Shown piece by piece: positions 8,714 through 42,625 of a DNA stretch of 64,000 nucleotides. A program made the translations under genes and the position numbers. The stretch is from contig MHAZ01000021.1 of assembly GCA_001803165.1 (NCBI GenBank), positions 62,001-126,000 on the forward strand. The letters are read 5' to 3'. The first letter of the stretch is position 1; each line of letters opens with the position of its first letter. The notes under the pieces were generated by a model that worked only from the letters and a program-made list of their open reading frames with translations, was not told where the DNA came from and ran no database searches. Source of the stretch: Stygiobacter sp. RIFOXYC2_FULL_38_25. Lineage in GTDB: Bacteria; Bacteroidota; Ignavibacteria; Ignavibacteriales; Melioribacteraceae.

Positions 8714-11700
8714 AATTTAAAAAAGTATTAATAATTGGAAGCTCCGCTCTCAAAATTGGCGAAGCCGGCGAATTTGATTACTCCGGTTCACAAGCAATCA
8801 AGGCATTAAAAGAAGAAGGCATTTATACTGTTCTCATCAATCCGAACATTGCTACAATTCAAACTTCGGATTACTTAGCAGACAAAGTTTACCTACTTCC
8901 AATCAACACCAACTATGTAGAGAAAGTAATCGCAAAAGAAAAGCCGGATGGAATAATTTTGGGATTCGGCGGACAGACCGCCCTTAATTGCGGGCTCGCA
9001 CTTCACCGCGAAGGAATACTAAAAAAGTATAATGTAAAAGTTTTGGGAACGCAGATAGACGCAATTGAAAACACCGAAGACCGGCAATTATTCTGTAATA
9101 AACTTTCTGAGATTGATGTAAAATTTCCTCAAAGCAAAGCTGTTACTTCTTTGGAAGAAGCAATTGAGTTTGCAGAAGAAATTGAATACCCGGTAATTAT
9201 CAGAATTGCGTATGCGCTTGGCGGACTTGGTTCCGGTGTTTGTCGTAACAAAGCAGAGTTGAAAAAACTTGCAACGAAAGCACTAAACTACTCCGCTCAA
9301 ATTTTAGTTGAAGAATATCTTGAAGGCTGGAAAGAAATTGAATACGAAGTTGTACGTGATAGATTTGATAATTGCATCACAGTTTGCAACATGGAAAATA
9401 TTGATCCGATGGGAATTCACACCGGAGAAAGTATTGTAGTTGCGCCAAGCCAGACTTTAACCAACAACGAATTCCACATGCTGCGGGAGATTGCAATAAA
9501 AACAATCCGCCATTTAGGAATAGTTGGCGAGTGTAACATTCAATACGCACTCGATCCTCATTCGCAAGATTACAGAGTTATTGAAGTGAACGCGCGCTTA
9601 AGCAGAAGTTCCGCGCTTGCTTCCAAGGCAACCGGCTACCCGCTTGCTTTTGTTGCCGCAAAGCTCGCACTCGGATACGGCTTGCATGAACTGCCAAACT
9701 CAATCACCAAAACAACAAAAGCATTTTTCGAACCGGCGCTCGATTACATTGTTATAAAAGTTCCCCGCTGGGATTTGAAAAAATTCCGTCTGGTAAAACG
9801 CAAGCTTGGTTCTTCTATGAAATCCGTTGGCGAAGTAATGGCTATCGGTAGAAAGTTTGAAGAAGCAATACAGAAAGCTATGCGAATGCTTGATATTGGT
9901 GTTGAAGGTTTAACTGCCAGCAGAACCAAAGTTGAATTTGACGAGCTAAAGGAAGCACTCGAAAATCCCACAGAAGAAAGAATGTTCGCCGTTGTTCAAG
10001 CACTCAAACAAGGATATTCCGTTGATTGGGTTCACACACTTACTCATATTAACAAATGGTTCTTATACAAAATTCAAAATATTGTTGATATAGAAAAGAA
10101 AGTCGGCGAGACAAAAGGAAATATTTCTAAAGAACTTTTGCAGCACGCAAAGCAGCATGGATTTTCCGATAGACAAATTGCGAACGTAGTTGGTAAAGAT
10201 GCGCACGATGTTTACAAGCTGCGTGAGAAACACAAAATTTATCCATTCATACAGCACATAGATACACTCGCTGCCGAATATCCGGCAAAGACAAATTATC
10301 TTTATCTCAGCTACAATTCTTCTTCGCACGATTTTGAATTCAAACTGAAAAATTCAATAATCATTCTTGGCAGCGGACCATACAGAATTGGGAGTTCTGT
10401 TGAGTTTGATTGGTGCTGCGTAAACACCGGCAAAACTCTGCGTGAGAATGGTTACAAAACCGTAATGATTAACTGCAATCCGGAAACCGTAAGCACGGAT
10501 TACGATGAGAGCGATGCCTTATTTTTTGAAGAGCTTACTACTGAAACGATCTGGGAAATTTACGACGCGATAAAAGCGAAGGGTGTTATTGTTTCGATGG
10601 GTGGACAAACACCTAACAATCTTTCACTCAAGCTTCATAAAGTCGGAATAAAAATTCTCGGCACATCACCGCAATCAATTGACCGCGCTGAAGACAGAAG
10701 TAAATTTTCTAAAATGTTAGATGAGCTGGAAATCGGTCAACCGGAATGGAGTAATCTAAATACAATAAAAGATGCTCTTGGCTTTGCAAACAAAGTTGGG
10801 TATCCCGTTTTAGTTCGCCCTTCATACGTCCTCAGCGGAGCGGCAATGGCAATTGCCACAGATGATTTTGAATTAACGCGCTTCCTTCAAAAAGCTGTTG
10901 ATGTTTCTCCGGAACATCCGGTTGTAATTTCTAAATTTTTAGTTAACGCAAAAGAACTCGAGTTTGATGCTGTTGCTCAAAATGGCAAGATAGTTTGCTC
11001 TGCTATTTCCGAACACGTTGAAAATGCGGGCGTTCATTCCGGCGACGCTACGTTGGTACTTCCCGCTCAACGTACTTACTTAGAAACGATGCGGCAGATT
11101 AAAGAATTCTCTGCTGCAATAGCAAAATCGCTCAACATAAACGGACCGTTTAATATTCAGTTTCTTGCTAAAGACAACAAGGTAAAAGTGATTGAGTGCA
11201 ACTTGCGCGCCTCGAGAAGTTTTCCGTTTGTTTCAAAAACTTTAAAGAAGAACTTTATTGAGATTGCTGCTAAAGTTATTGTTGGACAAAAAGTTGAAAG
11301 GGTTGAAGACTTAACTTTTAGTTACGATTACGTAGGCGTTAAAGCTCCGGAGTTTTCATTCACACGTCTTGAAGGAGCAGACCCAACAACAGGTGTGGAA
11401 ATGGCATCAACCGGCGAAGTTGCATGTCTTGGTGAAGATTTCGATGAAGCATTTTTGAAAGCGCTCACTTCCGTTGGCTACCGCTTCCCAATTAAATCAG
11501 TTTTAATTTCGTCCGGTACCATTGAATCAAAATCCGAGTTACTTGAACCGATGCGGCAAATGATGAAACTCGGCGTTAAATTTTATGCTACTTCCGGCAC
11601 TGCTAAGTTTATGCATAGTAACGGAATTCCGGTTGAAACAATTGAGTGGCCAAATAACAATAAGAACTCAAATGCCGTCGAACTGATAAAATCTAAATCC

Positions 11701-34118: not shown

Positions 34119-34766
34119 TTGCATATATTCGGCTTAGATTATGTTGTTGGTCTTGACAATTTTTTTTCAGAAAGAATATTAGGTACTGAGTTTTTGGAAA
34201 CCACAAAGAATAGATTAAATCCTTCAAGCTGGGTTAAAACCTACGGCGATACCCTTTATCGTTTTTCGTGCCTACGAATTAATGATAAAGAGATTGCAAG
34301 AGATCTTGTTCAGGAAACTTTTCTTGCCGCGTTAAGAAATTCAAAGACTTATAAAGGGGAAATATCAGAGAAGAATTGGCTGTTTACTATTCTGAAGAAT
34401 AAAATCATTGATCACTATCGCAAAAAATCTTCTGTTTTGATTTCGGAGGTGGAAGAACTCTGTGCAAGTACAAATCAATTTTTCGATGAGAACGAGCATT
34501 GGAAACAAGAGTCCGTTCCAAAAGAATGGAGCGTTAATTATTCATCACCGGTTGAGAACAAAGAATTTATTGAGATTTTGAATAAATGTATGGACAGGCT
34601 TTCGGAATTGTTGAAGATAGTTTTCACTATGAAATATCTTGATGAAAAGGAATCGGACGAGATATGTAAGGAATTGGCGATTACCACGTCTAACTACTGG
34701 GTTATAATACACCGGGCAAAGCTAAATTTAAGAGCTTGCTTAGAAAAGAATTGGATAAACAAATAA
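34119..34766 (+). CDS. ECF-type RNA polymerase sigma factor
   Basis: Alternative sigma factor with region 2 (YGDTLYRFSCLRINDKEIARDLVQETFLAALRNS, core-binding DLVQETFL and GEISEKNWLFTILKNKIIDHYRK) and region 4 (about 150-205, ending ITTSNYWVIIHRAKLNLRACLEKN). An unusual linker of about 50 residues separates them. The longest frame starts at a TTG without a Shine-Dalgarno; TTG at 34193, giving a 190-residue protein that starts near the conserved NPSSWV, is more likely. The stop overlaps the ATG of a small HxxxCxxC protein, its probable anti-sigma factor, and a bufferin-type operon follows. Confidence 0.88.
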   Translation: MHIFGLDYVVGLDNFFSERILGTEFLETTKNRLNPSSWVKTYGDTLYRFSCLRINDKEIARDLVQETFLAALRNSKTYKGEISEKNWLFTILKNKIIDHYRKKSSVLISEVEELCASTNQFFDENEHWKQESVPKEWSVNYSSPVENKEFIEILNKCMDRLSELLKIVFTMKYLDEKESDEICKELAITTSNYWVIIHRAKLNLRACLEKNWINK

Positions 34767-35020
34767 TGATTGATAAAATGATGATAACGTGCAGCGATGC
34801 AACCATGTATGTTTCCAAGAGAGAGGAAGGAAAACTTTCTTTCCAAGATAGATTTAAACTTTTTCTTCACCTTGCTATCTGCAAATTTTGCCGCCTTTTC
34901 GCCATACAAAACAAAATGATCATAAAAGAAATTAAACACATCCATTCCGAAGCTACCTTGACCGACTTGGAAAAAGAGCAAATTCAAGCTAAAATCCTCG
35001 AAAATAATTCCTCAAAATAA
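34766..35020 (+). CDS. Small zinc-binding anti-sigma candidate
   Basis: An 84-residue protein without membrane segments. It carries HLAICKFC, the HxxxCxxC zinc motif of zinc-binding anti-sigma factors, after TCSDATMYVSKREEGKLSF, which resembles the N-terminal helix of the zf-HC2 family. ATG at 34766 shares an A with the sigma factor's TAA, so the two are translationally coupled. The frame also opens at 34736, inside the sigma gene, which is unlikely. In Caulobacter the comparable anti-sigma NrsF is a membrane protein; here it is short and apparently soluble. Function is inferred from motif and position. Confidence 0.75.
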   Translation: MIDKMMITCSDATMYVSKREEGKLSFQDRFKLFLHLAICKFCRLFAIQNKMIIKEIKHIHSEATLTDLEKEQIQAKILENNSSK

Positions 35021-35032
35021 TTTTTAATACTT

Positions 35033-35060
35033 TGTAAGGTTTTAACAATCCTTCCGTCTT
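35033..35060 (+). promoter_or_regulatory. ECF-like promoter before precursor gene
   Basis: TGTAAG at 35033-35038, exactly 16 bases, then CGTCTT at 35055-35060. ECF promoters commonly pair a (T)GTAAC-like -35 with a CGTC-like -10 at 16-17 bases. Transcription would start near 35067. The sigma factor encoded just upstream is the obvious candidate to use it. Confidence 0.5.
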
Positions 35061-35100
35061 AATAAGGGACATTCAATCCATTAATTTAAAAGGAAGGATT
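35047..35100 (+). promoter_or_regulatory. Inverted repeat covering the ribosome-binding site
   Basis: AATCCTTCC at 35047-35055 is the perfect complement of GGAAGGATT at 35092-35100, which contains the Shine-Dalgarno of the precursor gene. Only transcripts starting upstream of 35047 (read-through from the sigma operon) would include the left arm; transcripts from the ECF-like promoter would not. Confidence 0.55.
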
Positions 35101-35106
35101 TACCCT

Positions 35107-35610
35107 ATGCAAAGTTCAAATAAAAACATCGCAAAGCACATTTTCTTAACCGGATCAATTGTTGCCGGTTCACTCTTGGGAATGGCACCAAAGTCTCTTA
35201 ATGCTGAAACACTTTTCAACTATAGAAGCCTTGGCTCCGGATCAGATCTGAGAGCTTCACTATTAAATACTTCACCGGACCGCAATTTGGAAATGAAATG
35301 TGGTTCCAAAAACGAAACCAAACCAGATAGCAAAACTTCATCTGATTCAAAGTCTAAAGATGGGAAATGCGGCGAAGGCAAGTGTGGTGACAAAAAAATG
35401 GAAGGCAAAGCTAAAGACCATAAGTGTGGTGAAGGCAAATGCGGTGATAAAAAAGCTGACGGCAAAGTAAAAGATGGTAAGTGCGGCGAAGGAAAATGTG
35501 GCGATAAAAAAGCCGACAGCAAAGTAAAAGACGCTAAGTGCGGTGCAGATAAGAGCAAAGAAATGAAGGACGCAAAGGCTCCGGAGAAAAAAGAAGCAGA
35601 GAAAAAGTAA
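35107..35610 (+). CDS. Bufferin/HvfA-type RiPP metallophore precursor
   Basis: Exported precursor of a ribosomally made, cysteine-modified copper-binding peptide. Residues 1-33 form a Sec signal (ends SLNA-ET). The mature part holds eight Cys, all in Lys-Cys-Gly: Cys65, 88, 93, 107, 112, 126, 131 and 145. Three GEGKCG copies match the EGKCG core of HvfA. Cysteine pairs five apart recur with an exact 19-residue period (88/107/126/145), so the core has grown by tandem 57-bp duplication. A Lys/Glu-rich tail follows. In this family an MNIO enzyme turns the cysteines into thiooxazole or oxazolone-thioamide groups. The modifying enzyme, its partner and a DoxX protein follow directly. Confidence 0.88.
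   Translation: MQSSNKNIAKHIFLTGSIVAGSLLGMAPKSLNAETLFNYRSLGSGSDLRASLLNTSPDRNLEMKCGSKNETKPDSKTSSDSKSKDGKCGEGKCGDKKMEGKAKDHKCGEGKCGDKKADGKVKDGKCGEGKCGDKKADSKVKDAKCGADKSKEMKDAKAPEKKEAEKK
35362..35540 (+). repeat. Tandem 57-bp repeats inside the precursor gene
   Basis: In-frame repeats encoding a 19-residue unit with KCGEGKCGDKK. Three full units and a partial fourth are visible. The DNA copies differ at synonymous positions (AAATGC/AAGTGT, GGCGAA/GGTGAA), so the duplication is not very recent or is kept by selection at protein level. Confidence 0.85.
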
Positions 35611-35673
35611 TCTTTGTATCAACGAGACCTCTGAAATTTTAGAGGTCTCCTCATTTAACCGAGAGAATTAATT

Positions 35674-36519
35674 ATGAAGAATAGAATAAAGCATACAGGC
35701 ATTGGTTTCCGAAAAGATTTTGCGGAAGAGTTTCTTGAAGGTACCAAACTAACAACATCATTTGTTGAAGTAGCTCCGGAAAATTGGATGGGCATTGGCG
35801 GGTACTGGAAAAAAGTTTTTAAGAAAGTAGCAGAGAAATATCCCGTATATGCTCATGGATTATCGCTTTCAATTGGAAGCCCGGAAGAACTGGATTTTGT
35901 TTTCCTAAAGAATATTAAAGAGTTTCTGCACGAATACAACATCGGCATTTATTCTGAACATTTAAGTTACTCCAAATGCGAAAACGCGCATCTGTACGAT
36001 CTACTCCCTATTCCATTTCGGTGGGATGCAGTTCAGCATATCTCCCAACGAATTAAAACCGTGCAAGATATTTTGGAAAGAAAGATTGCCATTGAGATTG
36101 TTTCCTATTACACACCTGTCGCTGCCGAAATGAGCGAAGTTGAATTTATCAGTTCAATCGTAAAAGAAGCCGATTGTAATTTGCTGCTCGATGTAAATAA
36201 TGTTTATGTAAATGGATTTAATCATAACTACAATGCCGAAGAGTTTATCAGCCAGCTTCCGCTCGATAAAGTTGAATACATTCACATGGCGGGACACGAG
36301 CAAGTTGCGCCAGATTTAATAATTGATACACACGGAGAGCCAATCATTGATCCGGTTTATCAATTGTTTGAATACACCGTCGAAAAACTTTCCAGTCCGG
36401 TTCCGGTTCTTCTTGAAAGAGATTTCAACATTCCGGAATTGCATGAACTTCAGTACGAGTTAAATAAACTTGATACAATTTGTAAAAAGGCATGGACCCA
36501 TGAAAAATTATTTGCTTGA
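35674..36519 (+). CDS. DUF692 / MNIO peptide-modifying enzyme (BufB/HvfB)
   Basis: Multinuclear non-heme iron oxygenase that modifies precursor cysteines using oxygen. The 281-residue TIM barrel shows family motifs: GIGFRKDF at the start, VEVAPENWM, AHGLSLSIGS, YSEHLSYS, LLPIPF, LLLDVNNVYVNGFN, IHMAGHE, DTHGEP and LLERDFNIPE. The His, Glu and Asp positions expected to bind iron are kept. One oddity: the usual E-N-x-S segment reads IEIVSYY, with Ile where Asn is expected. GAGAG lies before the ATG. It overlaps the DUF2063 gene by 20 bases, which fits the enzyme-partner pairing known in this family. Confidence 0.92.
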   Translation: MKNRIKHTGIGFRKDFAEEFLEGTKLTTSFVEVAPENWMGIGGYWKKVFKKVAEKYPVYAHGLSLSIGSPEELDFVFLKNIKEFLHEYNIGIYSEHLSYSKCENAHLYDLLPIPFRWDAVQHISQRIKTVQDILERKIAIEIVSYYTPVAAEMSEVEFISSIVKEADCNLLLDVNNVYVNGFNHNYNAEEFISQLPLDKVEYIHMAGHEQVAPDLIIDTHGEPIIDPVYQLFEYTVEKLSSPVPVLLERDFNIPELHELQYELNKLDTICKKAWTHEKLFA

Positions 36520-37258
36520 TGATACAGCCGTTCAGCAAAGCCGGCTTGCTAATTATTGCCGCACCGGTGTGCTGGAACCAATTAAGGGTCTAACGGAAAA
36601 CAGAGTTGGCAACTACAGAAGATTAGTTTATAATGTTATTGACGACACTCTTCAAACAGCATTTCCGCTAACCCATAATTTACTTTCGGAAGAAGAATGG
36701 GATGAAACAGTAAATCAGTTTTTCAGCAATCATGCTTGCCGGTCTACTTCTGTTTGGAAAATGCCATACGAGTTTTATCAGTATATCGAAGGCAGTGATA
36801 CTAATCTGAAAAAGATTTATCCTTTTTTAACAGAGCTTTTGTTGTTCGAATGGATGGAAATAGAATTATACATGATGGAAGATATGCGATTTCCGGAGGC
36901 ACAGATTTCGGGCGACTTTGAAAGCAGCGTAATAATATTCAATCCGGAGTTTAAGCTGATGAAGCTTAGTTATCCTGTGCATCAGAAAAACCCAAATGAA
37001 ATTGGCGATGAAGATAAGGGAGAGTACTTTCTTCTAATGTTTAGAGATAAGTTAAGCGGAGCAATTCAGTTTGTAAATCTTTCTTTGTTCTATGTATGGC
37101 TGATAGAAAGAATTGCTGCGTCACAAGATTCACTAAACAATATTTTAACGGAAGGCACAGATTTATTTGGATTAGACTACCCGACATTGCTGAACAACTC
37201 TATTCCGTTCTTAAGTGAATTAAAAACAAAATCATTTATTCTAGGATTTAGAAAATGA
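36500..37258 (+). CDS. DUF2063 partner protein (BufC/HvfC)
   Basis: A 252-residue protein of the DUF2063 family, which binds the precursor and presents it to the MNIO enzyme. The N-terminal DNA-binding-like DUF2063 domain (about residues 10-100) reads LANYCRTGVLEPIKGLTENRVGNYRRLVYNVIDDTL, then TAFPLTHNLL and MPYEFYQYI. The C-terminal domain contains the LLLFEWMEIELYMMED helix and a beta-rich region. Start is ATG at 36500 with AAGG nine bases upstream; the frame extends to TTG 36470 but that lies deeper in bufB. Its stop overlaps the DoxX start (ATGA). Confidence 0.88.
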   Translation: MKNYLLDDTAVQQSRLANYCRTGVLEPIKGLTENRVGNYRRLVYNVIDDTLQTAFPLTHNLLSEEEWDETVNQFFSNHACRSTSVWKMPYEFYQYIEGSDTNLKKIYPFLTELLLFEWMEIELYMMEDMRFPEAQISGDFESSVIIFNPEFKLMKLSYPVHQKNPNEIGDEDKGEYFLLMFRDKLSGAIQFVNLSLFYVWLIERIAASQDSLNNILTEGTDLFGLDYPTLLNNSIPFLSELKTKSFILGFRK

Positions 37259-37710
37259 ACAAGCTCTTAAAAATATATTCATCAATAACCGGCAAACTTG
37301 CAGTAGGATTCGATGTAACCTTGTTACTATTTAGAATTGTGCTGGCTTACGGTTTCTATTCTACCTCAAGCATGAAATGGCAGAACATCTCCGGCGTTGC
37401 CGAATGGTTTGGGTCGCTTGGAATTCCAATGCCAACTCTAAATGCTTATATGGCAGCTTCAACGGAATCTGCCGGAGTTGTCTTGCTAACATTGGGATTA
37501 GCAACAAGGCTTATCTCTATTCCACTGATCATTGTTATGATAGTCGCAATTGTAACGGTACATTGGGTAAACGGATTTGAAGCCGGCAATAACGGCTATG
37601 AAATCCCTCTCTACTATCTTCTTATGCTTCTAATGTTATTGGTTAAAGGTGGAGGCAGAATAAGTTTTGATAATGTCTTTAAGCGTTGGCTTACAGGCAA
37701 AAACAAATAA
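37255..37710 (+). CDS. DoxX-family membrane protein (BufD/HvfD)
   Basis: Four-helix integral membrane protein of 151 residues in the DoxX family (LLLFRIVLAYGFYSTSSMKWQNISG, then WFGSLGIPMPTLNAYMAASTESAG, LTLGLATRLISIPLIIVMIVA and a last helix with YYLLMLLMLLVKGG). DoxX genes regularly end bufferin/Hvf operons; the role is unclear, perhaps redox or export of the modified peptide. It is coupled to the DUF2063 gene by a four-base overlap, and a strong terminator follows, closing the operon. Confidence 0.9.
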   Translation: MNKLLKIYSSITGKLAVGFDVTLLLFRIVLAYGFYSTSSMKWQNISGVAEWFGSLGIPMPTLNAYMAASTESAGVVLLTLGLATRLISIPLIIVMIVAIVTVHWVNGFEAGNNGYEIPLYYLLMLLMLLVKGGGRISFDNVFKRWLTGKNK

Positions 37711-37811: not shown

Positions 37812-39323
37812 TTACGGATTTAATCCCGTGTGGCATTCTACGCAAAGCATCTTCTTCCACACTTCACCAACATCTCCGCCGGGATGTCTAAAGTTCAGCG
37901 GCTTATTAATTGCAGCAACTTCAAGTTTGTCCGGCGGACCTTGAGCATTAATCGTATGGCATTGATTGCAATCTTTTTTAATTAATCTGCCTTTATCGGT
38001 AACATGTTTATCATTATGGCAGCGGAAGCAACCAATGAATTCCATGTGACCAATATTGTTGGGATAAATATCCCAGCGTACTTTCATTTCCGGGAAAGTA
38101 TTCAAACTAAATGCTTCTTGTATTCCTTTAATTCCCTTTGCAATCAATTCTTTCTTATTCTTAAAAACATCCTGATAATTATCTTCATAAAATTGATTTA
38201 TCTCTGTCGCAATCGCTTTGTGAGCTTCTTCGGTAGTTTCAAATTTCTTTGCTAAAACTTCGAGCGCTGCAAATTTAATCTGCGGTAAGTCTTTCGGAAT
38301 TGTGCCTTTGGTTAATGCATTATTAATAAAAAATGCCGGTGGCTGATAATTATGCGAAGGACGGTTATGGCAATCCATACAGTCAACGGTTCTTGTTTCC
38401 AGTTTGCTTAATTCTTCTTTTGATATTTTTACTTCGTGGTCAACGTATTCATTAACTTCGCCGGTTTTTAGGTTAGTATACTTTACCCAAGGAATTTTCT
38501 CACGCTTCTTGTCAATCGCTTTGTATTCAATTCGTACGTTGGGATTTATATGCCAGTGAATTCCCTCTTCCAGACCAAGTGCGCTAAGAATAGAACCAAT
38601 CTTCATAGTAAGAGTAATATCCCACTCGGAATTTTTCTCGTCGGTCATAAAATGTTTTTCTGTTCTCAGTTTTCGAGAGTAAAACTTTTGAGGCCAGTGA
38701 CATTGCTCGCATGTTTCTCTTGCCGGACGCAAATTAGTAATTGGTGTTTCAATTGGTTTTGGAACTGTTCCTAAGGTAACTGCATAAACTTGATACAAAC
38801 CGGAAAGTTTTGAACGAACATACCAATCTGCGCCGGAACCTACATGGCAATCAACACACTTTACGCGTGCGTGCGGAGAGCCTTGATACGCGGTAAACTC
38901 CGGCTGCATAACGTAATGACAAGTCTTTCCGCAAAATTCTACGGATTCGGAATAGTGAAATGCTTCGTAACTTCCGACGGCAGTTGCCATCAGAAAAACT
39001 GATGTACCGATTGCAAAAATTAGAGCAGCATGGCGGTGTTGTATTATGTTGAAATTAATTACCGGCCAGCCCTTTCTCTCTTCTTCAGTTCTGCGTCTAT
39101 CTCTTCGGGTTTTTAACCACATGCCGATTGGAATAAGCAGCAAGCCGATAAATAACACACCGGGAAGCAGAACATATATTATTAATCCGAGATATGTATT
39201 GCCGGAATGCGTAACTGATGTGATAATAAAAAGGAACACTATCATTGAGAAGGTGATTAGCGCTATTGTGGCACCTACGAGAGAAATCCAATTTTTTGAA
39301 GAATCCGGCAGTTTTAGTTTCAT
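37812..39323 (-). CDS. NapC/NirT-family multiheme cytochrome c
   Basis: Membrane-anchored, periplasmic multiheme cytochrome of 503 residues. Two N-terminal hydrophobic segments (about residues 15-35 and 43-66) and a third near 94-113 precede the heme region. Heme sites: CGKTCH (a CX3CH variant), CVDCH, CEQCH, CMDCH, CFRCH, CNQCH and CVECH, seven in all. The EFCGKTCHYVM...YQGSPHARVKC stretch is typical of a NapC/NirT-like quinol-oxidising subgroup in metal- or anaerobic-respiring bacteria. It probably passes electrons from the quinone pool to periplasmic acceptors; the partner is not in the window. Confidence 0.9.
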   Translation of the reverse strand: MKLKLPDSSKNWISLVGATIALITFSMIVFLFIITSVTHSGNTYLGLIIYVLLPGVLFIGLLLIPIGMWLKTRRDRRRTEEERKGWPVINFNIIQHRHAALIFAIGTSVFLMATAVGSYEAFHYSESVEFCGKTCHYVMQPEFTAYQGSPHARVKCVDCHVGSGADWYVRSKLSGLYQVYAVTLGTVPKPIETPITNLRPARETCEQCHWPQKFYSRKLRTEKHFMTDEKNSEWDITLTMKIGSILSALGLEEGIHWHINPNVRIEYKAIDKKREKIPWVKYTNLKTGEVNEYVDHEVKISKEELSKLETRTVDCMDCHNRPSHNYQPPAFFINNALTKGTIPKDLPQIKFAALEVLAKKFETTEEAHKAIATEINQFYEDNYQDVFKNKKELIAKGIKGIQEAFSLNTFPEMKVRWDIYPNNIGHMEFIGCFRCHNDKHVTDKGRLIKKDCNQCHTINAQGPPDKLEVAAINKPLNFRHPGGDVGEVWKKMLCVECHTGLNP

Positions 39324-39439: not shown

Positions 39440-40216
39440 TTATTTCTTCTCTTCTTTCTTAGTTTCTTTTGTTTCCTTCAATTCCTTTTTCATGTCTGTT
39501 TTCTTTTCAACAATTACATGAACTTCTTTTCCGTCAGATTCGTCATCCATCATCTTCCACATCATGTTGCCCATTCCGCCATGCATCATTTTCATGTGAC
39601 TCATTCCGCCACCACCTTTGCAACAGCAGCCGCATTCGCCGCCCCCAATTTTCTTGTTCAACATAATAATATGATCTTCGCCTTCACAGTCATCTTCGCC
39701 AATCTTTTTCATAAATACTTTTACTTTTCCATCTTCACCTTGATCTTTTAGAAATTTTTCGGCTTCCTCACCTTCGTAAGTTTTTGTTTCTTCTTTGCCG
39801 TCTTTGTTTGTTGTAACTGTAATGTTCTTCTTTCCATCTTTAATTTCAACTTTCACTTTTTTCTGATCACCATCAGCTTTCCAATCGAAATCATCGGAAG
39901 TAACTACATCAAATTTTGAATCGCCGCCGCTGGTATAAATTTTAACTCTTTTTTTCATTCCCGGGGCTTCATCTTCATCGGTGGAAAAAACAAACGCTTT
40001 AGATTCTCCGGTAGCTTTAGCAATCTTAGCAATGCGCTCCGCATCTTTACCTTCGAACACAACATCTTTTCCATCTACTTTGATTGTTACTTTCTCAACC
40101 TTTCCTTTAAGATCGGCAAGTTTCTCTTTTGCTTCTTTATCCTGCGCGTATAAAGTTACGCCAAGAACCAAAAACAACATTATGAGAGCTGCTTTTAATT
40201 GATTGATCTTTTTCAT
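39440..40216 (-). CDS. Exported Met/His/Cys-rich protein
   Basis: Exported protein of 258 residues, not of a family I can name. The signal peptide is about residues 1-24 (ending TLYA-QD). A charged region of beta-strand-like units follows (VKVEIKDGKKNITVTTNKDGKEETKTYEG and a related earlier stretch). A striking block near residues 192-225 has GGGECGCCCKGGGGM, SHMKMMHGGMGNMMWKMMDD, rich in Cys, Met and His, ligands for soft metals such as Cu(I). A Lys/Glu tail ends it. It is divergent from a sensor kinase/regulator pair across 133 bases with GTTAA direct repeats, which suggests it is their target. Confidence 0.75.
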   Translation of the reverse strand: MKKINQLKAALIMLFLVLGVTLYAQDKEAKEKLADLKGKVEKVTIKVDGKDVVFEGKDAERIAKIAKATGESKAFVFSTDEDEAPGMKKRVKIYTSGGDSKFDVVTSDDFDWKADGDQKKVKVEIKDGKKNITVTTNKDGKEETKTYEGEEAEKFLKDQGEDGKVKVFMKKIGEDDCEGEDHIIMLNKKIGGGECGCCCKGGGGMSHMKMMHGGMGNMMWKMMDDESDGKEVHVIVEKKTDMKKELKETKETKKEEKK

Positions 40217-40349: not shown

Positions 40350-41933
40350 ATGAAAGAGAGACGCATTAAAATAATTATCGGCTTGATGGCGTTTGCCGTT
40401 ATTGGCTTAATAGGCGTACAGGTTTTCTGGTTAACCAATCTTATAAAGGTTGAAGAAGAGCGCTTTAACCGCAGTGTTAGCAATGCTATGATTGCGGCAG
40501 CTTCCAAACTTGAACGCGGCGAAGCAGCCAAAATGCTGGTTAATACAGTTTGGGTTGGCAAAAATGAAAGAAAACCAAAATCCGTTAAAGAGTTAAGACT
40601 TACCGGAACCCATTTCAATTATTTCAATCATGATACAACTCAAAAAGGGCGCATCATAAAAATCGAAAGTGATGATGACAATTTTGTTTACCATTTCCGG
40701 GATGATTCTACTGAAAGAGGAAAAGTCTCCGAGGTGAAAGTATTTGCTGTAAGTTCAGATCCCAAAATGAGGGTGCAAGTTTCTTCACCTAAAATAGTCT
40801 TTGAAAAACAGCTTGATACATTTGTTACTACTAAAAAACGCTTGGTGCAAAATGTTGTTGCCGAAATGATAGACATTAATATTCAGCGACCAATTGAAAA
40901 ACGTCTATCGGTAAAAGCCCTTGATTCAGTTTTGACTCAAGAGTTTGCCAGCAAAGGAATTAACAGCGAGTTTCAGTTTGGTATTCTTAAAGTACGACAA
41001 GACAGTTTGACATTGCTTAAGAAAGGAACTGCAGTTGCCGAGCTTAATAAATCCAACTACAGAACACTTTTATTTCCGGGCGAGGTTTTCACCGGCATAA
41101 ATGAATTGCGTGTTTATTTTCCAAACAAAAACAGTCTAATCTTAAGCTCTTTAGTTGGAATGCTGGCTCTATCAATTGGGTTTATTGCCTTAATCGTTGG
41201 AGTTTTTCTTAAGACAGTTCAACTATTTATTCGGCAAAAGAAAATTACAGATGTTAAAAACGATTTGATTAACAACATTACTCACGAATTTAAAACGCCA
41301 ATCTCAACTATATCTTTGGCTTGCGAAGCTTTGAATGAGCCGGCACTTTCTGCAGAAAAGCAATCAGTTGCCCGTTACTCAAAAATTATCCGGGAAGAAA
41401 ATGAGCGGCTTCAATTAATGGTTGATACGCTATTAAATACAGCTTCATTGGAACGAGATGAGATTAAAATTGAGAGAAAAGAAATTGATTTAGAAGTTAT
41501 TATAAATACTACGATTTCAAAATTTGATGAAGCTATCCGTCAGCGAGAAGGCTCTGTTGTTGTTGAAACGCAAAGCCCAAATAGCACAATACTTGGCGAC
41601 AAGTTTCACCTAACAAATGCAATCAGCAACCTGGTAGATAACGCGCTGAAGTTTAACGAGCAAAAGCCGGAAGTTAAGCTGACTTTATCTTCAGAACCCG
41701 AGAGCGCTGTTCTTGCAATTTCTGATAACGGAATCGGAATTCCTAAAGAGAGTTTTGATAAAATTTTTGAAACGTTCTACCGCGTGCAAAGCGGGAATGT
41801 GCAAAACGTGCGGGGCAACGGAATTGGATTAAGTTACGCCAAGAAAATCATTGAACTGCATGGCGGAACTATTTCTGTTGAAAGCCAAATCAATAAGGGC
41901 ACAACGTTTAAAATCACTTTGCCCCAGCAATGA
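40350..41933 (+). CDS. Sensor histidine kinase
   Basis: Membrane sensor kinase of 527 residues. First membrane helix about residues 8-30 (IIIGLMAFAVIGLIGVQVFWL); a periplasmic domain of about 230 residues with no named fold; second helix about 268-292. The dimerisation box has the phosphorylated His312 in NNITHEFKTPISTISLA. The ATPase domain has the N-box NLVDNALKFNE, G1 ISDNGIGIP, F-box FETFYRV and G2 RGNGIGLSYAKKI. It overlaps the response regulator by four bases. The signal is unknown; the divergent metal-rich gene hints at a metal or envelope-stress cue. Confidence 0.93.
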   Translation: MKERRIKIIIGLMAFAVIGLIGVQVFWLTNLIKVEEERFNRSVSNAMIAAASKLERGEAAKMLVNTVWVGKNERKPKSVKELRLTGTHFNYFNHDTTQKGRIIKIESDDDNFVYHFRDDSTERGKVSEVKVFAVSSDPKMRVQVSSPKIVFEKQLDTFVTTKKRLVQNVVAEMIDINIQRPIEKRLSVKALDSVLTQEFASKGINSEFQFGILKVRQDSLTLLKKGTAVAELNKSNYRTLLFPGEVFTGINELRVYFPNKNSLILSSLVGMLALSIGFIALIVGVFLKTVQLFIRQKKITDVKNDLINNITHEFKTPISTISLACEALNEPALSAEKQSVARYSKIIREENERLQLMVDTLLNTASLERDEIKIERKEIDLEVIINTTISKFDEAIRQREGSVVVETQSPNSTILGDKFHLTNAISNLVDNALKFNEQKPEVKLTLSSEPESAVLAISDNGIGIPKESFDKIFETFYRVQSGNVQNVRGNGIGLSYAKKIIELHGGTISVESQINKGTTFKITLPQQ

Positions 41934-42625
41934 AAAACGAAATAAAAATATTGCTAATTGAGGATGACAAAAACCTCAGCACTCTTCTAAAAGAATTTCT
42001 CGAAGTTAAGGGTTATTCAGTTACGCAAGCATTCAATGGCGAAGAAGGGCTTTCGGCATATCAAGAAAGCGAATATGATTTGTGCATACTTGACGTAATG
42101 ATGCCAAAGATGGATGGCTTTACGCTCGCAAAAAAGATTCAAGATTATAATCCTCAAACGCCTTTCTTATTCCTTTCCGCCAAAGCTATGCTCGATGATA
42201 AGTTAAAAGGTCTAAAACTTGGCGCAGATGATTACGTTACAAAACCGTTCAGCATGGAAGAGCTTTTACTACGCATTAAAGTAATTCTGAAACGCTCGGC
42301 TTTAATTGAAAGTGAAATTGAGCAGACAAAGTTTTCTATCGGAAGTTATACTTTCGATTTTGAAAAACGTCTTCTGAAGCATGATGGTTTTGAGCAGAAG
42401 CTTACATCAAAAGAAGCTGAGCTTTTGAATTTATTGTGTCTGCACAAAAACAGCATTTTGGAAAGGTCTATTGCGCTGAATAAGATTTGGCAAAATGACA
42501 ATTACTTTACTGCCCGCAGTATGGATGTTTATATAACGAAGCTGCGCAGCTACTTTAAGAATGATTCCTCAATTGAAATAGTGAATGTGCATGGAACGGG
42601 ATTCAAACTTCAGACAAATGATTAG
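41930..42625 (+). CDS. OmpR/PhoB-family response regulator
   Basis: DNA-binding response regulator of 231 residues. The receiver has the acidic pair in IEDDKN, phosphorylation site Asp55 in CILDVMMPKMDGF and Lys in DDYVTKPFS. The C-terminal winged-helix domain (about 135-230) includes LTSKEAELLNLLCLHKN, ARSMDVYITKLRSYF and the final HGTGFKLQ. It is coupled to the kinase gene by ATGA. Its stop overlaps the stop of the converging trpF-like gene by four bases, with no terminator between them. Confidence 0.95.
   Translation: MKNEIKILLIEDDKNLSTLLKEFLEVKGYSVTQAFNGEEGLSAYQESEYDLCILDVMMPKMDGFTLAKKIQDYNPQTPFLFLSAKAMLDDKLKGLKLGADDYVTKPFSMEELLLRIKVILKRSALIESEIEQTKFSIGSYTFDFEKRLLKHDGFEQKLTSKEAELLNLLCLHKNSILERSIALNKIWQNDNYFTARSMDVYITKLRSYFKNDSSIEIVNVHGTGFKLQTND

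Follow-up and report, generated by a model that had tools for sequence, protein, structure and literature searches.

In Neisseria meningitidis, the genes for the extracytoplasmic function (ECF) sigma factor RpoE and for MseR are co-transcribed with NMB2140-2143, within an operon that extends from NMB2140 to NMB2145 (PMC2893595). MseR (NMB2145) is described as a zinc-associated anti-sigma (ZAS) protein with the motif H30-x3-C34-x2-C37 and an important C4, and the neisserial sigmaE, which has msrA/msrB as its other target, is reported to use the consensus GTMAGBWTT, 12-13 nt, CGTCTAAH (PMC2893595). In Haemophilus influenzae, RpoE2, which is held by the small cytoplasmic protein HrsE, controls msrAB and genes of the DoxX, UPF0276 and DUF2063 families after exposure to hypochlorous acid (HOCl) (PMC7907618). 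Products of the HvfA type contain 5-thiooxazoles and bind copper (PMC13097082, PMC13419390), and the precursors of the HvfABCX pathway were mostly from Pseudomonadota in one survey (PMC12452194). A looser precedent comes from Escherichia coli, where the sigmaE-dependent promoter rseA P3 lies inside rpoE and starts 228 nt before rseA (PMC8595263). Here we describe a six-gene locus in the window, by which we mean the whole 64,000-nt stretch (G000:C21:62001-126000) of Stygiobacter sp. RIFOXYC2_FULL_38_25, taken from a 4.4 Mb genome in 22 contigs. The locus is probably an HvfABCX operon whose sigma switch is of the neisserial type, with two predicted promoters, P1 and P2. P1, written in the codons of the DNA-reading helix of the sigma factor, is most likely the site at which this factor promotes transcription of its own inhibitor. 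The features are as follows.

34194-34766 (mechanical open reading frame from 34119), + strand: ECF sigma factor, TIGR02943 group (Pfam/NCBIfam; start from relatives)
34665-34694, + strand: P1, TGTAAG-N16-CGTCT(AAC), promoter-like site inside the sigma gene, in the helix-turn-helix codons
34766-35020, + strand: soluble ZAS-type anti-sigma factor, 84 amino acids (NF052368; Cys/His pattern)
35033-35059, + strand: P2, TGTAAG-N16-CGTCT, promoter-like site upstream of hvfA (pattern scan)
35107-35610, + strand: HvfA-type precursor, 167 amino acids, Sec-like N-terminus (NF050137; read by eye)
35674-36519, + strand: HvfB-type multinuclear non-heme iron-dependent oxidase (MNIO, DUF692) (PF05114, NF003818, PDB 3bww)
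36500-37258, + strand: HvfC-type DUF2063 partner protein (PF09836, NGO1945_C, NF050145)
37255-37710, + strand: HvfX-type DoxX membrane protein (PF07681, NF050144)

A promoter-like site within the sigma factor gene

The CGTCT of P1 stands 74 nt before the anti-sigma ATG. Its codons (TGT AAG GAA TTG GCG ATT ACC ACG TCT AAC) encode CKELAITTSN, residues 158-167 of the 190-amino-acid form of the sigma factor, which in an AlphaFold model run from the end of the first helix through the turn to the beginning of the recognition helix in region 4. A scan for TGTAAG-N16-CGTCT matched this gene at 34665-34691 and matched the equivalent place in two relatives (G078 and G357); a third, G019, has CGTCA at the place of the P1 -10 element. 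The site had gone unmentioned in an earlier, sequence-only reading of the locus.

Taken alone, the site in the window's sigma gene could be chance. It is conceivable, though quite improbable, that the locus is a standard hvf operon whose sigma factor is simply autoregulated as in Neisseria, where rpoE is autoregulated within one polycistronic operon (PMC2893595), so that P2 alone matters and P1 is a chance coding match. The evidence against this lies in the sigma genes of other hvf loci. In total, 111 loci with hvfB were fetched, 45 of them with a sigma/anti-sigma pair; without the near-identical L068, L188 and L189 these came to 42 non-redundant loci, and without L114 (other gene order) and L120 (divergent sigma) to the 40 used for P1. 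(A smaller preceding scan excluded L033 and L120 and retained L114.) Third-base constraint was scored over 186 columns of the 40 sigma genes, with residues numbered as in the 215-amino-acid open reading frame. The codons of T190, K184, N192 and C183, all within P1, rank first to fourth of the 186, and that of S191 ranks 12th. The third base is G in 29/40 genes at T190 (expected 6.9), G in 40/40 at K184 (expected 13.2), C in 31/40 at N192 (expected 15.1) and T in 37/40 at C183 (expected 22.6), and the five codons between K184 and T190 hold ranks 37 to 111. Lysine at the P1 position is encoded by AAG in 35/35 genes, though AAA:AAG is 582:249 over these genes. The motif TGT[AC]AG-N16-CG[AT]C was present in 26/40 genes, against a mean of 1.1 and a maximum of 5 in 500 synonymous shuffles, a roughly twenty-fold excess.

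The result was replicated outside the hvf loci. TIGR02943 at E 1e-30 gave 59 matches in 57 of 295 Bacteroidia genomes, from which G574 and G568:C54 were left out as loci already in the hvf set. When the 57 remaining loci were read, 56 had a detectable anti-sigma gene behind the sigma gene and 6 were at hvfB; the 51 sigma genes without hvfB in roughly 1.5 kb on each side form the replicate set, with a median mutual identity of 36% and none above 80% identity to the 40 hvf-linked genes. Here P1 codons rank 1, 2 and 3 of 187, S191 ranks 8th and N192 only 54th, and the motif is present in 31/51 genes (shuffle mean 1.2, maximum 5). The shuffles of both sets rule out P1 as a chance product of coding alone, and the counts of 26/40 and 31/51 against shuffle means near 1.2 speak against a chance match in the window too. 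Since P1 recurs in sigma genes that have no hvf genes beside them, it tracks the sigma/anti-sigma module and not hvf.

The placing of the sites also fits promoters. Between sigma and hvfB, the 40 loci (57,792 bases) hold 46 sites in the sense direction and 0 in the antisense direction, and the distance from P1 to the first ATG of the anti-sigma open reading frame is 59-104 nt in 38/40 loci, with 5 and 201 nt in the remaining two. Upstream of the sigma gene, no sigma-type site was found within 400 nt in 38/39 usable loci (matches in L104, which begins inside the sigma gene, were not counted as upstream); positive autoregulation as in Neisseria is thus not seen, and this, together with a gene order unlike that of Neisseria, counts against a simple autoregulated operon. 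Two rearranged loci with the anti-sigma gene behind the hvf genes, L033 and L114, are without P1. In L033 (6801-10303) the order is sigma-hvfABCX-anti-sigma, so that the hvfA promoter could drive the anti-sigma gene, and the sigma factor has also diverged.

A different explanation, which we consider unlikely, is that the in-gene element is no promoter, and that its codons are constrained by mRNA structure, by translational coupling of sigma and anti-sigma, or by codon preference in the helix-turn-helix. Coupling would fit the first ATG of the anti-sigma open reading frame, which lies at most 20 nt from the sigma stop in 38/40 loci. However, the constraint sits on the -35 and -10 bases of an ECF promoter at the 16-nt spacing of P2 and not on the codons between them, some P1 changes are shared with P2, and the same motif stands before msr and thioredoxin-like genes elsewhere. 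Moreover, in L114 the sigma and anti-sigma genes, placed behind hvfX, are still adjacent and yet lack the element, although this is one locus.

The site before hvfA and the changes it shares with P1

The inner part of P2, GTAAGGTTT-N12-CGTCTTAA, starts at 35034 and resembles the neisserial sigmaE consensus (GTMAGBWTT/CGTCTAAH, spacer 12-13), from which it is one base off in the -10 element. It is the sole mismatch-free site for the pattern GTAAGGTTT-N12-CGTCTTAA within the window, and TGTAAGG and CGTCT at equal spacing are common to the four family members compared and to a fifth, L199. P2 also goes with the sigma pair. Among the named hvfB loci, which are the best 80 matches of the scan, 67 had a usable hvfA; a P2 score of at least 10/11 was reached by 12/27 loci with a sigma pair vs. 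1/40 without (Fisher 2.8e-5), and a score of at least 9 by 19/27 vs. 3/40 (Fisher 8.3e-8). One locus, L070, scores 11 without a pair, and its sigma gene may sit elsewhere. No P2 was found in 11/40 loci, judged from the first ATG of the hvfA open reading frame, which is doubtful in L182 and L183; all 11 retain the TGTAAG of P1.

Where both sites are present, some of their changes are common to both. TGTCAG in P2 is accompanied by TGTCAG in P1 in 5/5 loci, and the other 24 loci with P2 have TGTAAG in P1 and P2, save L096, L072 and L087. L096 has TGCAAG in both sites and L095 has CTACT in both. That the match of TGTAAG and TGTCAG types in the hvf loci reflects several events was considered and rejected, the TGTCAG loci being a single clade.

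In the sigma factor itself, glutamine is present in the recognition helix of 18/20 genes with CAG at the P1 codon that follows the conserved cysteine vs. 8/56 genes with AAG there. Sites elsewhere in the genome were obtained with TGTMAGG-N15-CGWCTA in 34 other Bacteroidia genomes (49 matches in 20 genomes, of which 14 are P1 and 35 lie outside it; reversed control 7), and the 35 were sorted by hand with the sigma codons, those of G012 being assigned to whichever of its two sigma genes was closer. AAG-type genomes have 26 sites with A and 1 with C, and CAG-type genomes 2 with A and 6 with C (Fisher 1.1e-4 by site; 0.017 by genome without the mixed genome G475), which is weak evidence because genera are repeated. 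For instance, G012 has TGTAAGG near its AAG-type sigma gene and TGTCAGG near its CAG-type one, and in G475, whose CAG-type sigma gene is on another contig, the hvfA open reading frame is closely preceded by a TGTCAGG site. In G475 (C20) and G555 (C8), similar genes for secreted SGNH-hydrolase-like proteins (identified by reading; L306 and L307) have TGTAAGG-N15-CGACTA, and the TIGR02943 sigma factors of these genomes are of the TGTCAG type; these sites may be read by another sigma factor.

A broader proposal can be put forward tentatively, at somewhat below even confidence: one group of ECF sigma factors in Bacteroidota and Ignavibacteriota would read itself, with about 28 bp serving both as the code for the helix-turn-helix and as the promoter that makes the inhibitor, and the DNA role would steer the protein, AAG/Lys going with TGTAAG targets and CAG/Gln with TGTCAG targets. 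Since CAG goes with glutamine in the recognition helix, a changed promoter preference would have to rewrite the sigma factor's own sequence.

Several observations weigh against a promoter at P1 and against the switch as a whole. P1 and P2 are promoters predicted from sequence, and the third-base statistics treat genes as independent. The strict P1 pattern fails in 14/40 hvf-linked sigma genes: eight (L069, L073, L091, L180, L181, L183, L184 and L198) have CTTC for CGTC at the P1 -10, of which the proposal gives no account, L074, L094 and L095 have CAAC or CTAC there, and L072, L087 and L096 have TGCAAG as the P1 -35. It also fails in 20/51 replicate genes, several of which are without the Lys/Gln codon at that place. 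As for shared changes, L072 and L087 combine TGCAAG in P1 with TGTAAG in P2, the five TGTCAG hvf loci represent one clade and one event, and three non-P1 -35 sites mismatch the sigma codon (CAG-type G475 and G555; AAG-type G501). L101 has a sigma-type site upstream of its sigma gene, and the models for the anti-sigma factor and HvfC both score slightly under their cut-offs. In the window's genome the exact motif gives 4 matches vs. 4 in the reversed control, so that a wider regulon is seen in relatives only, and msrA (7/11) and msrB (8/11) score at chance level, with 0/2 carrying the site. These points notwithstanding, the third-base constraint, its replication and the changes shared by P1 and P2 suggest that P1 is most likely where the sigma factor starts transcription of its inhibitor.

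Proposed regulation, wider regulon and function

The switch could operate as follows. The sigma factor would be present at a low basal level, made from an upstream promoter independent of it, and would be held by the zinc-type anti-sigma factor until an oxidant or a metal acts at the anti-sigma cysteines and frees it. Free sigma would then start transcription at P2, for hvfABCX, and at P1, which would yield anti-sigma and, by read-through, hvfABCX, but no extra sigma. Because P1 would raise anti-sigma without more sigma, the response would limit itself. HvfB with HvfC would convert the KCG cysteines of HvfA to thiooxazoles, and HvfA would be exported and bind Cu(I) or another soft metal.

If P1 is active, the codons for the DNA-reading part of a regulator also hold the site that this regulator targets, a compact form of feedback. 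One could then test directly how specificity evolves when the regulator's own coding sequence must change too, and the system could provide an orthogonal sigma/anti-sigma part for Bacteroidota. A readable promoter also offers a means of finding the regulon. In the window's genome, a regulon was sought with three patterns, which gave 4 vs. 12, 4 vs. 4 and 45 vs. 101 matches relative to reversed controls; with counts at or below control, we propose none there beyond the operon itself. One match of the first of these patterns, L045, was dropped as lying inside an apparent coding sequence. Across four genomes (the window's and three relatives), TGTAAG-N16-CGTCT gave 18 matches vs. 10 in the reversed control. 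In the relatives the motif stands before msrB (G019, G078), msrA (G019) and thioredoxin-like genes (G019, G357); msrA of G078 and of G357 scores 10/11, no msrB match was found in G357, and 5/5 msr genes found in the three relatives score 10 or 11 of 11. Among the other Bacteroidia, 20 regions with 27 non-P1 sites were read, many of them from one genus (G445, G407, G476), and Pfam was run on 5 proteins. The sites precede 4 msr genes (3 MsrBA fusions, confirmed by Pfam, and 1 MsrA, by reading), 5 YHS-like genes (by reading; the one scanned had 24.9 bits, below the cut-off of 30.3), 2 thioredoxin/DsbD-like genes and, according to Pfam, a gene for a DUF417 protein; others have no such link.

Because the promoter precedes msrA, msrB and thioredoxin-like genes in relatives, these data point to a predicted signal that consists, at least in part, of oxidant damage. 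This bears on function, for which the pathway may serve oxidant defence (protection of thiols or against HOCl) and not copper buffering, the sigma factor sensing oxidants and the Cys-rich product scavenging them or protecting envelope proteins. We regard this as a real possibility, if not the favored one, and it is compatible with the promoter reading. The sites before msrA, msrB, thioredoxin-like, DUF417 and YHS-like genes in relatives are in line with it, as is the control of msrAB together with hvf/DoxX genes by RpoE2 of H. influenzae after HOCl (PMC7907618). On the other hand, HvfA-type products are reported to bind copper (PMC13097082, PMC13419390), and no msr gene with a site was found in the window's own genome. 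Copper buffering, which the sequence-only reading had proposed, is what we infer from the HvfA/FonA relatives.

Genes of the operon

The open reading frames show six consecutive genes at 34119-37710, all on the + strand and with the coordinates first reported. The ECF sigma factor, small HxxxCxxC protein, Cys-rich exported precursor, DUF692, DUF2063 and DoxX genes recognized earlier on one strand are borne out by these frames and by Pfam and NCBIfam, and the sequence likewise agrees that the operon is accompanied by an ECF sigma factor of its own and by a soluble anti-sigma factor of the zinc type. The overlaps noted earlier are present at three junctions (sigma/anti-sigma, 1 nt; hvfB/hvfC, 20 nt; hvfC/hvfX, 4 nt) but not at all of them, since 86 nt separate hvfA and 63 nt separate hvfB from the gene before it. 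The identical six-gene order in three further genomes of the family (L028, L029, L032) indicates that the arrangement is not chance.

The sigma protein matches Sigma70_r2 (50.7 bits), Sigma70_r4_2 (36.8 bits) and TIGR02943 (163.2 vs. a cut-off of 162.2), and comparison with relatives makes a start near TTG 34194 more likely than the mechanical TTG 34119. The AlphaFold model of the 190-amino-acid form has a mean pLDDT of 84.7, with residues 154-161 and 165-188 as the helices of the helix-turn-helix. Foldseek against the PDB returned ECF sigma chains as top matches (best E 2.3e-5), and region 4 alone fits region 4 of E. coli sigmaE on DNA (2h27) with a target TM of 0.79-0.82 and an E-value of about 0.1. 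The anti-sigma protein falls just below the cut-off of the antisigmaE model NF052368 (47 vs. 50 bits) and below that of zf-HC2 (15.2 vs. 22.2); its residues C9, H35, C39 and C42, read from the sequence, form the pattern C9 ... H35-x3-C39-x2-C42, and it is a predicted zinc-binding inhibitor of the sigma factor.

All 8 cysteines of the precursor lie within KCG, and the KCGExKCG_twice model NF050137 matches it in 4 stretches (57.1 bits vs. a cut-off of 19.5). The full-length HvfA model NF050188 is clearly below its cut-off (43.6 vs. 95), and the Pfam search found no family at E 1, hence no DUF2282. The DUF692 protein (PF05114, 326 bits) scores above the cut-off of the HvfB model NF003818 (383 vs. 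360) and below that of BufB NF050167 (272.8 vs. 310), and matches PDB 3bww, a DUF692 protein, at E 9.7e-70. The HvfC-type protein scores 61.4 with PF09836 (cut-off 27.2), 34.1 bits with NGO1945_C and above the cut-off with PF22106, and below the cut-off with HvfC NF050145 (130.2 vs. 142); no PDB sequence match was found for it at 0.001. The HvfX-type protein is above the cut-offs of both PF07681 (75 vs. 23.6) and HvfX NF050144 (126.2 vs. 80). From the repeat, HvfB and HvfX models, the operon is classed by sequence as HvfABCX (oxazolin) type. Thus, in the earlier label of bufferin/HvfABCD type, the Hvf part is upheld and the bufferin part is not: a DUF2282 bufferin operon is ruled out by the lack of DUF2282 and by the HvfB and BufB scores.

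Distribution and neighboring genes

The HvfB model was matched at E 1e-3 or better in 25/395 genomes of the phylum, with 6 above the cut-off, 4 of these in the window's family. MNIO matches at E 1e-60 occur in 18/391 sampled genomes of the class, of which a clear gap in score marks 10 as HvfB-like, and in 25/395 Bacteroidia genomes, of which 19 are marked in the same way. Three sampled genus mates (G329, G873, G912) have no MNIO at E 1e-60, which indicates patchy presence. The nearest named relatives, L067 and L068, are from metagenome-assembled genomes of Ignavibacteriales, consistent with the Ignavibacteria-like lineage suggested at the outset.

A sigma/anti-sigma pair lies near hvfB in 28/80 named loci. 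It recurs in 26/45 loci of Bacteroidota/Ignavibacteriota, in 1/30 of Pseudomonadota (L117-L146), namely L120, in L100, which is labelled Beijerinckiaceae and whose sigma factor groups with Bacteroidota sigmas, and in 0 of the other 4. These counts are lower bounds, because contig ends truncate some of the loci. The operon extends the HvfABCX pathway to Ignavibacteriales and many Bacteroidota, often with its own sigma switch. Other arrangements occur. In a class relative, L031 (6598-8161) has an hvfB and hvfC pair on an 11.9 kb contig in which no KCG precursor, sigma or anti-sigma was detected; behind it (9716-10736) are repeats that recur about every 66 bases in the translations, possibly a CRISPR array. 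L030 (5501-8588; G012) has hvfABCX with only a weak ECF sigma match (E 2.5e-4) before hvfA and no anti-sigma match, and the two TIGR02943-type sigma genes of that genome are located away from this locus.

Beyond the operon in the window, 37812-39323 (- strand) encodes a multihaem cytochrome with several CxxCH motifs, NapC/NrfH-like by eye and convergent with hvfX. An exported-looking 258-amino-acid protein with many Cys, Met and Lys residues (GGGECGCCCKGGGGMSHMKMMHGG) is encoded 2 kb from the operon at 39440-40216 (- strand); neither Pfam nor NCBIfam gave a match for it at E 1, and it is possibly another metal-binding protein. Beside it, at 40350-42625 (+ strand), translations reveal a histidine kinase and response regulator pair.

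Comparison with known systems

The soluble zinc-type anti-sigma factor had been taken as a novelty of this operon. It is instead a known arrangement in another lineage, since it has been published for N. meningitidis and H. influenzae. In the open-access literature searched we recognized no report that links a sigma pair to hvf genes in Bacteroidota or Ignavibacteriota. As described for N. meningitidis, the locus combines an ECF sigma factor with a soluble ZAS protein, and the window's anti-sigma shares the MseR spacing C-x25-H-x3-C-x2-C. The neisserial operon likewise contains a DoxX gene, together with three more whose counterparts in H. influenzae encode UPF0276 (DUF692), DUF2063 and periplasmic proteins, and its promoter resembles P1 and P2, with msrA/msrB as a further target there. 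However, the sigma and anti-sigma genes come last in one autoregulated operon in N. meningitidis, whereas here they come first, with P1 in the sigma gene and P2 before hvfA. The HvfABCX and RpoE2-HrsE systems of H. influenzae share with the locus the same four biosynthetic genes and a small cytoplasmic anti-sigma factor, and have msrAB as a target, but the hvf/DoxX cluster is separate from rpoE2 in the published descriptions (PMC7907618, PMC13419390). Bufferin 1 clusters resemble the locus in having MNIO, DUF2063 and DoxX genes with an ECF sigma gene nearby; neither the DUF2282 precursor nor the NrsF reported for those clusters (PMC12452194) was found here.

For the in-gene promoter, open-access searches, which are no proof of absence in print, located only rseA P3 of E. 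coli as a promoter for an anti-sigma gene inside a sigma gene, and no report of such a promoter in helix-turn-helix codons with synonymous-site constraint across a phylum. What is already known, then, is the operon type and the association of a sigma factor and soluble ZAS with hvf genes; what looks new, as predicted from the sequence, is the use of two copies of one sigma-type promoter, with P1 inside a gene. Like P1 as predicted here, rseA P3 is a sigma-dependent promoter within the sigma gene that makes an anti-sigma transcript. In contrast to P1, it belongs to another sigma group with a membrane anti-sigma factor, and its start lies 228 nt from the anti-sigma gene as opposed to the 59-104 nt found in 38/40 loci. 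Unlike rseA P3, P1 lies in the helix-turn-helix codons of its sigma factor, with third bases constrained over many families.

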